The position numbers and the translations under genes are program-made. The notes under the pieces are model-generated. The model saw only the letters and a list, made by a program, of their open reading frames with translations, was not told the origin of the DNA and ran no database searches. 64,000 bases of DNA, taken from assembly GCF_001542915.1 (NCBI RefSeq), contig NZ_LNNH01000055.1, positions 124,001-188,000 on the forward strand, in the 5' to 3' direction. This DNA is from Peribacillus simplex. Its GTDB lineage: Bacteria; Bacillota; Bacilli; Bacillales; DSM-1321. This document shows, in pieces, positions 30,930 to 37,031 of the stretch. Every line of letters begins with the position of its first letter. Within the stretch, counting starts at the first letter, position 1.

Positions 30930-31197
30930 ATATTTATCACTCCTTTTTCCAGAAATTATTATAACATACCAAATTACGTTAAAGGAATTAAATCATTGTC
31001 CAAACTGTGCATTTGTCACTCGAACGGCTTGAATCCCCATCAATAATCGGGTTTTCCCCGCTTTGTTCCATCACCTTGAACCGAGACCATTCATGAGTTG
31101 ATTGCGTATCCAAAATCGAAACCAAGCAGCACTAGTGGAAGACTCAAACTGAATAATGACGGAGTTCAACGTCCACATTGTTCAAGCCATAAAAAAA
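30930..31197. other. Gap between patA and yphE
   Basis: No supported gene. It contains the yphE promoter region, unresolved. Bases 31176-31197 (CACATTGTTCAAGCCATAAA and on) precede the patA terminator and resemble bases 61204-61225 before the ribU terminator. This looks like the end of a dispersed repeat. Confidence 0.45.
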
Positions 31198-31231
31198 GTA
31201 GACAAACTCGATTTTTCATCGAGTTTGTCTA
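31191..31231 (-). terminator. Terminator after patA, repeat-family member
   Basis: Perfect 14-bp arms TAGACAAACTCGAT (31199-31212) and ATCGAGTTTGTCTA (31218-31231); on the minus strand the stem is followed by CTTTTTTT. The same 14-base arm occurs at 61227-61258. Confidence 0.88.
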
Positions 31232-31275
31232 CAATGTGAGGACGGCCCTAAGGCTGTCTTTTGCGCAGATTCCAA

Positions 31276-32649
31276 TTAAGCTTGAAGCGTTGGCAGCACT
31301 TCTTTAAACGCATTGATAACGGTATCGACTTCATCCAATTGAATCGTCAATGATGGCTCAATCCTAATCGTTTTGGAATTAATGAGCGTACCTGCCACTA
31401 AAATTCCTTTATCAAACAAGGCTTTTGAAAATTCATAGCCCACTTCGTCTTTATGGAACTCAATACCGATCATCAATCCTTGGCCGCGAATTTCCAAGAC
31501 CTTGTCTTGGTGCTCGTTTGCCACTTCCCTTAAACCATTCAAGAAATATTCACCCACTTCTGCAGCACGCTCCGGTAATTTTTCTTCCAAAAGAACGTCG
31601 ATCGTAGCTATGGCCGCAGCGCAAGCGAGTGGATTTCCGCCAAACGTCGTCGTGTGCATGAATGGATTGTCAAACCAGCTTTTAAACACTTTTTCATTGG
31701 CAACGACTGCACCAGCCGGCATCACCCCGCCGCCAAACGCCTTAGCCAAACAAATAATATCCGGAACAACATCATAGAGCTCGGAAGCGAACATTTTACC
31801 AGTTCGGCCCATACCAGTCTGGACTTCATCCAATATCAATAATGCATCATATTCGTCGCACAATGCCCGAACCTGTTTTAAATAGTCTTGCGGAGGCAGG
31901 ATGACCCCGCCTTCACCTTGGATAGGTTCCAACAGCACGGCAGCGACATCTTCACCGACCAGAGCACAACTTTCAAACGTTTTTCTCATCATATCCACAT
32001 CACCGAACGGAACATGGCGCACACCTGGTATCAGTGGGATGAATGGTTTTCGGAACATGCCCTTCGCTGTGGCCGAAAGGGAACCAAGGCTCTTGCCATG
32101 AAATGATTTCGTCGTGGAAATGATCGTGAAGCGGTCACTATACATTTTAGCAAGCTTAAGCGCAGCCTCCACGCTCTCCGTCCCGCTGTTCGTAAAGAAG
32201 GAGTATTTAAGATCTCCCGGCGTGATATCGGCAAGGATCTTGGCTAGCATTGCCCGTAAAGGGTCAAGTAAGTCCTGGCTATGGAGGGCTTGTCTTTGCA
32301 ATTGATCCGTGACTGCTTTCACGACTTTAGGGTTGCGGTGACCAACATTATAAATCCCGAAGCCCCCTAAACAATCAATATATTTCTTTCCATTTACATC
32401 CGTAAAGCAGGAATCCTGATCTGACCACTCAACAGCGGCGAATTGCGTGTCTTTTGTCACCGTCTTCCGATATTCCAAAAACCCAGGGTTTACATGATTA
32501 CGGAAGTTCTCGACCGTTTCCCTCGTGACCCATTGGGCATCCTCTTTTGAAATTTCCTTTTGTTCGATTAATTGAAGCACTTTTTTAATATAGTCTTGAG
32601 TTTCCGATTGGGTAGCTTGAGTTTTTTTGCTTTCAACATTGATAGACAT
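31276..32649 (-). CDS. patA: Putrescine aminotransferase (PatA type)
   Basis: Class III PLP aminotransferase, very similar by eye to E. coli PatA, which converts putrescine and 2-oxoglutarate to 4-aminobutanal and glutamate. Seen: [16 protein letters not shown] N-terminus, [50 protein letters not shown], and the PLP lysine in [14 protein letters not shown]. 457 residues. It is preceded by a sigma-54 promoter (32751-32768) and a palindromic upstream site. An ornithine aminotransferase role is less likely because the [10 protein letters not shown] region is PatA-specific. Confidence 0.9.
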
Positions 32650-32750
32650 GTAATAATCTCCTTTTTGATAACTGTAGTGGTTGGATCATTTTAAATATTT
32701 CTGGTGAGATGTTAATGCTTACCTCCCTTTTTGCTTATATATATATAATT

Positions 32751-32768
32751 AAGCAAGAAGCATGCCAA
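32751..32768 (-). promoter_or_regulatory. Sigma-54 (-24/-12) promoter of patA
   Basis: Minus strand reads TTGGCATG-CTTC-TTGCTT: GG and GC are separated by exactly ten bases and fit the TGGCAC-N5-TTGC consensus. It lies about 100 bases upstream of the patA ATG, inside the intergenic region after the sigma-54 activator gene. Confidence 0.88.
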
Positions 32769-32811
32769 GTTAAAAATCCTATGAATATCGTCATTTAGGT
32801 TAGAATCCCCT

Positions 32812-35038: not shown

Positions 35039-35070
35039 AGTTTCACTCCCCTTAAAGTAACCTAGTCTAT

Positions 35071-35079
35071 ATTTTAACA
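35071..35079 (-). promoter_or_regulatory. Extended -10 promoter of the sigma-54 activator gene
   Basis: Minus strand TGTTAAAAT (35079-35071), consistent with a sigma-A start near 35063 and a short leader to the GTG at 35038. No convincing -35 is visible. Confidence 0.45.
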
Positions 35080-35080
35080 T

Positions 35081-35484
35081 AATTCTGAATTGCTAGATAA
35101 AAAATAACCCATAACTTTTGATACCTCTTACACCTGTGCCTATTCAAGCCATAAGAAAAGGGCCATCCGCTGGCCCTTTTCATCTAAACGGACGACATTT
35201 TCAATCTTCCTCTCCCTATGATATGGAGAAGGGTATTCCTGTTGCAGCCATTGTCACCCTACCTGGCTAATCGTCAAAATAATCAGTAAACTGAATCGTT
35301 GCGTCTAGGGCCAATAAGCTTCTGATACGCCCTTTTTTGGTTTAAGCGACCACACCATTTCCTCTACATGCATGCACGGAAGCCGCTTACCAAATTCTTG
35401 ATCCAAAAACGAATAGGACATTGACATGAACGCTGCTGAACGTCTTAAACGGGATCGGCTGCCTCCCTAAACAGGAAAGTCGAT
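35081..35484. other. Gap between the permease and activator genes
   Basis: A perfect 10-bp palindrome AAAAGGGCCA/TGGCCCTTTT (35156-35180) is a probable bidirectional terminator, preceded by TTCAAGCCATAA as at 31187. On the minus strand a short open frame starts near 35426 (MSMSYSFLDQEF...) and ends at a stop around 35305, and another frame continues over it. This could be an eroded gene or repeat. No product is recognised. Confidence 0.45.
35156..35180 (-). terminator. Terminator between permease and activator genes
   Basis: Perfect 10-bp inverted repeat with a 5-base loop; T4 follows on either strand. It lies 300 bases past the permease stop and 118 bases before the activator start. Confidence 0.65.
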
Positions 35485-36822
35485 TCACTGTGCCTCTTCA
35501 AAACTGAATAACGGAGGGGATTCCGTAAACCATTTCGTCCGGTAAGAAAGATACACGATCCCTATCCCTGCCCAGACTGTCCCCAGAATCAAGGAGCTCA
35601 TTTCAAGATTAAGCCATAGGATGAACACCGATGCCCCGCCAATAATAGGGAACAGCATATTGGCAAGAAATCCTTTGACCGTGTGAAAACTTTTGTTCCT
35701 GATGGCATGGACGATTACGCAAATATTGACGAAGGTGAAAGCCATCAGCGCTCCGAAATTGATCAGCGAAGTAGCCGTAACCAGATCAAGGAATAAGGCA
35801 ACCAGCGAAATGGCTCCGACAAAGATGACATTAAAAAATGGCGTATTATATTTTGGATGGACAAATCCGAAAAGCTTTTTTGAAATCATCTGGTCGCGCC
35901 CCATCACATATAACAACCTTGATACACTGGCATGTGAAGCAAGACCGGAGGCAAGGGTGCCGCATAGTGTGCCAGCAAGGAATATCGATTGGAATAGCTT
36001 CCCGCCTACGAAAAGTGCTATTTCCGGGGAAGCTGCTTCCGGATCATTGAAACGGGAAACATCGGGAAAGAATAGCTGGGTGAAAAATGCAGCTGCCACA
36101 AATAAAACCCCTCCGATGAGAGCCGTCAAAAAAATGGCCCGCGGAATCGTTTTGGCTGGATTGGGTGTTTCTTCCGATAATGTCGTGACCGCGTCGAACC
36201 CCAAGAAGGAAAAACAAAGGATCGTAGCACCCGCTATGAGCGTCGACGTTTCCAAATGAGGTCCGATGAACGGCTGAAGCGAGGAAACGTCTCCGGTACC
36301 TTCACCATGCATGACCCCCTTGATGACAAGTGCCACGAAAATGATGATGACGAGAATTTGAAAAAAAACAAGGAAGCTATTGAAGTTTGCAGCGAAATTT
36401 ACATTGAATAAGTTAATTCCAGTCATTAACAAGACAAATGCCACCACCCATATCCATGGGGCTACTTCCGGAAAAAGTGCCGTTAAGTATATTTTTGTTA
36501 AAATCGCATTCACCATCGGTAAAAATAAGTAATCAAGCATCGATGACCATCCGACAAGGAAACCTAAATGCGGATTGATCGTTTTTTGTGTATACGTATA
36601 GGAGGACCCGGCCTGAGGATAAATTTTCACCATTTTCCCATAGCTGGCTGCCGTAAACAGCATGGCCACCAAAGCAATGACATAAGCGGTCGGCACATGT
36701 CCTCCCGTTAATTCGGAAACGATCCCGAATGTATCAAAGACGACCATCGGCGTCATGTACCCAACACCAAGCAAGACGATTTGCCATAAGTTTAAAGACC
36801 TTTTCAGTTTACCTGTTTGCAT
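35485..36822 (-). CDS. APC-family putrescine importer (PuuP-like)
   Basis: 445-residue amino acid-polyamine-organocation permease with about twelve membrane helices. By eye it resembles E. coli PuuP along most of its length: [74 protein letters not shown] and [24 protein letters not shown] segments. Likely a proton-coupled putrescine importer. It has its own sigma-54 promoter 85 bases upstream and lies next to patA and the activator, which supports a catabolic role. Substrate is inferred, not proven. Confidence 0.88.
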
Positions 36823-37031
36823 GTATCATGCCCCTTCCCTTTTTTTCGAGAAAAATCGACCAGCTTCTCCGTTCATTTCAAAAAATTTCTTGGTTATATT
36901 ACACTCAGCAATTTTCATACCAAAAAAAATAGTCGCTATTTAACAAAAAATAAGGAAATATAGAGTATGCTTGATGCAAACTTGAATAACCTATTCATTT
37001 TTTCATACTTTCAGGGAAGTTTTTTTTCCAC
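36823..37031. other. Permease upstream control region
   Basis: Holds the sigma-54 promoter at 36907-36923, an ATGCAAAC box at 36974-36981 (opposite orientation to the GTTTGCAT box before patA), and the 15-base palindrome TGAATAACCTATTCA at 36983-36997. No gene is seen. Confidence 0.55.
36907..36923 (-). promoter_or_regulatory. Sigma-54 (-24/-12) promoter of the permease gene
   Basis: Minus strand TTGGTATG-AAAA-TTGCT with GG and GC exactly ten bases apart, about 85 bases before the permease ATG. Same layout as the patA promoter. Confidence 0.82.

Follow-up and report, generated by a model that had tools for sequence, protein, structure and literature searches.

A putative sigma-54-dependent putrescine-scavenging regulon dispersed over the chromosome of Peribacillus simplex, with its probable hub between gpsA and yphE

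Three genes lie between gpsA and yphE in a 64,000-nucleotide stretch of the Peribacillus simplex genome (the window, to which plain coordinates below refer), and the question raised by this locus is whether they form a putrescine catabolic unit of their own or belong to something larger. All are on the minus strand: patA, encoding an aminotransferase of 457 amino acids (31276..32649), the gene of a sigma-54 activator, or enhancer-binding protein (EBP; 32933..35038), and a puuP-type gene encoding an importer of 445 amino acids (35485..36822). The block is flanked by gpsA (37206-38324) on the puuP side and by yphE (30732-30929) with yphF on the patA side. A first-pass annotation of the sequence had called these genes and their coordinates correctly and had read the block as a self-contained polyamine catabolic unit. 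Our analysis indicates that the block very probably serves as the hub for a putrescine-scavenging regulon that depends on sigma-54 and is spread over the chromosome, and the strongest new result is a candidate enhancer site that links it to distant polyamine genes.

Pattern matching located conserved -24/-12 promoters upstream of both metabolic genes, TGGCATGCTTCTTGCT for patA (32752..32767, minus strand) and TGGTATGAAAATTGCT for puuP (36907..36922, minus strand). They are the only two matches to TGGYAYN5TTGCW in the 64-kb window; 0.42 chance matches are expected over this length, and two or more were reached in 6 of 100 shuffles. The count alone is not decisive, and it is position and conservation that decide. 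The promoter, together with the palindrome described below, was kept before puuP in all 21 gpsA-linked Peribacillus loci and before patA in 21 of 21 Peribacillus loci, the own genome being counted in both. The first-pass annotation had described both promoters as near-perfect; the sites are real matches, but the wording was slightly generous for puuP, whose -24 element reads TGGTAT rather than TGGCAC.

An 18-bp palindrome, YTATGCANNNNTGCATAR, recurs upstream of the -24/-12 promoters around the EBP. It is often doubled, with the copies 19-20 bp apart, and paired copies typically precede the -24 element by approximately 50 and 70 bp. A palindromic position weight matrix (PWM), started from a seed chosen by eye, was trained on 69 -24/-12 matches from other genera and P. 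asahii, which comprised the plus-strand matches in the named loci L064-L095, chance matches there being retained. The window, P. simplex L063, loci L070, L082, L085, L087 and L094, and matches less than 150 bp from a locus start were excluded. A palindrome above 13 bits occurred within 200 bp of 57 of the 69 training promoters, compared with a mean of 0.0 in five composition shuffles. The left-out window promoters showed palindromes at the same spacing, all on the minus strand. Upstream of patA, the PWM found an inner candidate upstream activating sequence (18.8 bits, 50 bp upstream of -24; 32818..32835) and an outer one (11.5 bits, 70 bp; 32838..32855); upstream of puuP, the corresponding sites scored 17.3 bits at 49 bp (36972..36989) and 15.2 bits at 68 bp (36991..37008). 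Only three sites in the whole window exceeded 13 bits, every one at these promoters, as were four of the six above 11 bits. The palindrome is likely to be the binding site of the window EBP. Since the training loci are homologs of the window cluster, the PWM matches in the window do not test the site fully independently; palindromes found elsewhere in the own genome, outside the block, provide a better test.

Genome-wide, the strict -24/-12 pattern occurred at 24 sites, versus 4 for the reversed control. Four of the 24 had a palindrome above 11 bits within 125 bp, and all four stand before polyamine-type genes: patA, puuP, a second PuuP-type permease gene (C32:31298) and an agmatinase-family gene (C54:50715). 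The other 20 lacked a palindrome at this threshold and distance. The PWM was run over the window and selected loci, so the list of regulon members is a minimum. Two further members have promoters outside the strict pattern. An aldehyde dehydrogenase (ALDH) gene on contig C25 carries a 20.1-bit palindrome at 68 bp, and a third puuP, whose product is 71% identical to E. coli PuuP, is divergent from the agmatinase-family gene, with one shared 12.7-bit palindrome between the two. This divergent pair lies approximately 100 kb from the block. The same divergent agmatinase/PuuP promoters around shared palindromes were found near the EBP in loci L065 and L079, while in L069 only the agmatinase-side promoter was found within the stretch scanned. 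The C32 operon behind the palindrome and -24/-12 site (L311:1319-5260) encodes, in that order, the PuuP-type permease, an amidohydrolase and an AguB-like enzyme (342.5 bits versus a cut-off of 410). The agmatinase-family protein passed the agmatinase model TIGR01230 (204.5 versus 174.3) and did not pass PRK02190; its top PDB match was guanidinobutyrase. Another ureohydrolase gene, whose product is 48% identical to this protein, adjoins a different EBP gene (G000:C2:27620-30183) and possibly represents a second guanidino-compound regulon.

The step that would follow PatA, oxidation of 4-aminobutanal, had been noted as absent from the window. A candidate for this step is the palindrome-bearing ALDH on C25, a betaine-aldehyde-dehydrogenase (BADH)-type enzyme that is 67% identical to the ALDH of the Neobacillus cluster. 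For the next step, from γ-aminobutyric acid (GABA), nothing in the own genome closely resembled the cluster GabT (best identity, 35%). A class III aminotransferase and a second ALDH on C25 are candidates, but their promoter (L153) lacks the palindrome.

Comparison with relatives suggests how the own-genome arrangement came about. In a survey of at least 80 named PatA loci, with an EBP ortholog defined as scoring at least 600 bits within 9 kb of patA, an ortholog (48 to 95% identity) was found in 26 of the 80 loci listed, several of which end at contig edges. Adjoining the EBP in these 26 were a BADH-type ALDH (25 loci), PuuP (19), glutamate dehydrogenase (GDH; 18), GabT (14), SSADH (13) and the agmatinase-family gene (5). 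Among the 54 loci without an EBP at 600 bits, PuuP was found in 3; this group includes L088 and L095, in which 40 to 41% identical relatives of the EBP are present. A full arrangement is seen in Neobacillus L071, with the order permeases, GDH, EBP, ALDH, patA, gabT and SSADH; a permease gene and the genes of GDH and ALDH are each preceded by a -24/-12 site. The single EBP locus without an adjoining ALDH was P. simplex L063, the closest named relative of the window, whose order gpsA-puuP-EBP-patA-yphF is that of the window. Two further loci deserve mention in their own right. In Scopulibacillus, a second PatA-like gene (51% identity) adjoins a distant EBP paralog (36%) and has a -24/-12 match (L083:16302-19253). 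In a Desulfosporosinus metagenome-assembled genome (MAG), from an anaerobic member of the Bacillota, the arrangement is similar: -24/-12 matches precede both puuP and patA, and a divergent, 40% identical EBP is present (L088:5005-10350).

Within the genus, 36 Peribacillus genomes were compared. The EBP was present at 65% identity or more in 22 of them, 21 times in the gpsA locus and once, in P. asahii MA001 (G002), elsewhere, where the -24/-12 promoter and palindrome stand before an ALDH-patA pair. In one genome that is 87% complete (G008), the EBP ortholog is split into two frames (L054; G008:C2:1073850-1075617), by assembly error or decay. Promoter and palindrome were kept before the C25-type ALDH gene in 21 of 21 loci and before the agmatinase-family gene in 22 of 22 (above 7 bits; the best site of the weakest locus scored 8.8 bits), again with the own genome counted. 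Exactly the 22 genomes with the EBP have the agmatinase-family gene at 90% identity or more, against at most 50% in the other 14, and the C25-type ALDH reaches at least 94% identity in the 21 genomes with the gpsA-linked block. Among 30 gpsA loci from this set, puuP began 383 to 478 bp past gpsA in 21, while in the other 9 the site was empty, with yphE 268 to 430 bp past gpsA. The predicted insertion of the block between gpsA and yphE fits this comparison.

In the EBP tree, the window and P. simplex grouped with two Bacillus sp. loci, L065 and L066 (92/87, not a firm fork), and P. asahii was placed in a different set by a firm fork (100/100); the PatA tree did not resolve this grouping. The C25 ALDH grouped firmly (100/98) with Paludifilum, Alicyclobacillus, Paenibacillus sp. 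P96 and a MAG, on a branch flagged as long and apart from the Bacillaceae cluster ALDHs. Because the EBP and ALDH trees group differently while the palindrome is shared, the regulon of the P. simplex clade looks like a patchwork tied together by a shared enhancer site. This suggests how a clustered catabolic regulon can become scattered and still be tied by common enhancer sites: among the 26 EBP loci sampled, P. simplex alone has no ALDH beside the EBP, and the distant ALDH of the own genome, which groups with other lineages than the Bacillaceae cluster ALDHs, carries the same site.

The identities of the block's two metabolic proteins are supported by homology. PatA passed NCBIfam PRK11522 (772.8 bits; cut-off, 612), missed TIGR03372 by 1.5 bits (657.1; cut-off, 658.65) and had E. 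coli PatA (4uox) as its top PDB match, with 270 of 450 residues identical (60%). All 13 checked active-site residues of E. coli YgjG, including F91, F327 and L419 of the entrance, are identical in the window protein; these residues were named for pyridoxal phosphate or putrescine binding, the entrance or putrescine-induced movement (PMC4244111). Over 438 amino acids the importer shares 61% identity with E. coli PuuP, and it shares 52% with PlaP. Three of six presumed PuuP residue positions differ, but their numbering is uncertain and the assignment does not depend on them. The first-pass names for both proteins, a PatA-like putrescine aminotransferase and a PuuP-type putrescine importer, are thereby upheld.

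The activator was described in the first-pass annotation as a CBS/PAS/AAA+/Fis protein, and most of this description stood. It has an AAA+ sigma-54 interaction domain (Sigma54_activat, 238.6 bits) with a GAFTGA-type loop and a C-terminal helix-turn-helix (HTH_50, 34.2 bits), as expected of an EBP. In the PAS region, one Pfam domain exceeded its cut-off and a second fell below it. A structure model of the N-terminal 358 residues (mean pLDDT, 73; pTM, 0.41; useful for the PAS part only) matched mostly PAS proteins, with no CBS proteins among the best 50 fold matches. Evidence for the CBS part was indirect: neither the window protein nor its L064 counterpart matched Pfam CBS at an E value of 10 or less, while the aligned ortholog in L093 did (2.3e-9). 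The N-terminus is possibly a degenerate CBS-like region. The highest-scoring named EBP model was that of PrdR (NF041552), at 418.5 bits; this identity was rejected, the score being far under the cut-off of 795 and the gene context different.

The activator gene most likely starts at GTG 35038, with AAGGGGAG in front and the frame start kept in congeners; the longest open reading frame reaches 35080. Its sigma-A-type extended -10 element, TGTTAAAAT (35071..35079, minus strand), had been proposed earlier and is conserved, as TGTTAAAAT or TGATAAAAT, in all 19 upstream regions displayed from 22 loci scanned (own genome counted), although a consensus promoter scan of the window did not list it. Terminator-like hairpins on the minus strand follow the activator gene (32884..32930; 20-bp stem, between it and patA) and patA (31198..31232), so patA and the activator gene are separate units; puuP is driven by its own promoter.

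From these identities and sites we infer the following sequence of events. The activator would be transcribed from the sigma-A extended -10 promoter, and its CBS-like/PAS N-terminal sensor would detect a polyamine or its product. It would then bind the palindromes at their typical enhancer distances, hydrolyze ATP and so open the sigma-54 RNA polymerase. PuuP would bring putrescine in, PatA would transaminate it to 4-aminobutanal and the C25 BADH-type enzyme, under the same palindrome, would oxidize this to GABA. The agmatinase-family and N-carbamoylputrescine-amidase-like enzymes, which also stand behind the palindrome, could supply putrescine.

Several observations weigh against a dispersed putrescine regulon. 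The palindrome was seeded by eye, the training promoters are related to one another and to the window, and the shuffles preserve base composition only. The exact palindrome pattern occurs at 4 places in the genome versus 3 for the reversed control, which is not significant; exact copies on C23 and C27, with no -24/-12 site in the flanking stretches inspected, were treated as chance occurrences. Two strict promoters outside the polyamine set have a palindrome that is farther off or of lower score (L145, 17.5 bits, 306 bp upstream; L150, 10.1 bits at 104 bp). Apart from P. asahii, the 22 genomes with the EBP all belong to one clade and do not stand for 22 independent co-occurrences. Of the 54 named loci that lack the EBP, 13 also have the ALDH. 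The activator loop reads GSFTGA, one residue off GAFTGA, as it does in 9 of the 26 named relatives. The C25 ALDH failed the aminobutyraldehyde model TIGR03374 by a wide margin (416.7 versus 909.3), and its best family is betaine-aldehyde dehydrogenase (640.6 versus a cut-off of 668.6); the Neobacillus cluster ALDH also fails TIGR03374 (378.7). Furthermore, a second BADH-type ALDH on C56 is just as close to the Neobacillus enzyme (69% versus 67%). The C56 enzyme was rejected as the main partner, as it sits in a heme-dependent N-demethylase/DmmA-like operon beside another EBP, and the -24/-12 site of this operon (L166) has no palindrome above 6 bits within 400 bp. The C56 region itself (L174:2534-10339), with its heme-dependent oxidative N-demethylase-like operon, NCS1-type permease, BADH-type ALDH, -24/-12 site and adjoining EBP, resembles a unit for the catabolism of methylated amines.

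Among the alternatives, the one that survives best concerns the substrate. The regulon may serve mainly another diamine or guanidino compound, such as cadaverine, agmatine or 4-guanidinobutyrate, with putrescine as an intermediate or side substrate, which is partly compatible with a putrescine regulon. The agmatinase-family enzyme passes the agmatinase cut-off and is yet nearest in the PDB to guanidinobutyrase, an AguB-like enzyme stands under the same palindrome, and E. coli PatA accepts cadaverine too (PMC4244111). However, PatA and PuuP match putrescine-specific proteins, and PuuP adjoins the EBP in far more of the named loci than the agmatinase-family gene does (19 versus 5 of 26). We consider a different main substrate possible, though rather unlikely.

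A self-contained putrescine unit, in which nothing beyond the importer, the first enzyme and the regulator would be needed and generic housekeeping enzymes would carry out the later steps, would agree with the grouping of the three genes, with the separate promoters of patA and puuP and with the hairpins after patA and the activator gene. The earlier reading of this kind is not supported, because the palindrome precedes the sigma-54-type promoters of polyamine genes elsewhere (the ALDH, the agmatinase-family gene and two more PuuP-type permeases) and because the ALDH adjoins the EBP in 25 of the 26 named loci. Most sampled relatives keep the same activator in a fuller cluster, and a self-contained block is very improbable. 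It is equally hard to credit that the palindrome belongs to another regulator, such as a repressor: the link to the EBP is an association and a perfect palindrome could fit many HTH dimers, but the site recurs at an enhancer-like distance from -24/-12 promoters around the EBP in many genera, and of the 24 strict promoters in the own genome, 20 lack it (above 11 bits, within 125 bp).

A dispersed sigma-54-dependent putrescine regulon therefore remains the preferred explanation, and the own genome encodes the sigma factor in duplicate. A search for SigL, suggested in the first-pass annotation, returned two rpoN genes, both above the TIGR02395 cut-off. The first, with neighbors judged by eye, appears to adjoin a gapA-like gene and its regulator. 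The second, full-length copy (L173:10571-12040; G000:C25, about 88570-90040; RpoN box, SRRTIAKYRE) is divergent from an aminotransferase/ALDH/ALDH operon. The first, sigma-54-type promoter of this operon has no palindrome, and its last gene is the candidate ALDH with its own palindrome-bearing promoter. Of the 21 genomes whose unit is linked to gpsA, all but G017 (20 of 21) have an rpoN copy at the equivalent place, and no second intact copy was found in the other 15 of the 36 genomes. It is conceivable, if quite doubtful, that the P. simplex clade combines a dispersed polyamine regulon with an acquired RpoN2 that preferentially serves amine promoters, giving a spore former a dedicated EBP and a dedicated sigma-54. 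The position of this gene beside the ALDH operon raises the question of sigma-54 specialization in a Gram-positive bacterium.

Control of patA by sigma-54 has a precedent in E. coli, where patA (ygjG) has been reported to be under the control of NtrC, sigma-54 and sigma-S (PMC9397018) and ygjG is listed in a table of NtrC binding (PMC4066584). The enzyme and the predicted sigma-54 dependence are shared. In contrast, the activator in E. coli is the global NtrC, while the window apparently encodes a dedicated one-component EBP, and a repressor, PuuR, is part of the E. coli puu cluster as well. In Bacillota or Bacilli, a survey reported sigma-54 enrichment for GDH, arginase/agmatinase (COG0010), COG4992, COG0160 and aldehyde dehydrogenases (PMC12316311); in its accessible text these are COG lists that name no putrescine regulon, activator or site. 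The main text of a Clostridiales sigma-54 survey (PMC6615313), as available, contains neither "putrescine" nor "polyamine", and no dedicated sigma-54 putrescine activator in Bacillaceae was found in the open-licence literature searched. For B. thuringiensis, GabR, RocR, PrdR, KamR, SoxR, BkdR, AcoR and LevR have been named as EBPs, and the EBP of an arginine and proline metabolism operon was given as unknown (PMC4428206). None of the EBPs named in the accessible text of that study serves putrescine. PrdR, which provided the best-scoring named model for the window activator, differs from it in gene context. The RocR, GabR and KamR regulons of Bacillus resemble the present system in that a PAS-type activator adjoins its -24/-12 targets in Bacillaceae and serves the catabolism of nitrogenous compounds. 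They differ from it in targets, which here are PatA, PuuP, the ALDH and the agmatinase-family gene, in the palindrome, the window EBP's own candidate site, and in the distribution of the targets over several loci. Overall, the proposed putrescine regulon would be a new RocR/GabR/KamR-style sigma-54 regulon, a kind already known; for putrescine use in Bacillaceae, the present analysis supplies an activator, a DNA site and a set of genes that can be tested.

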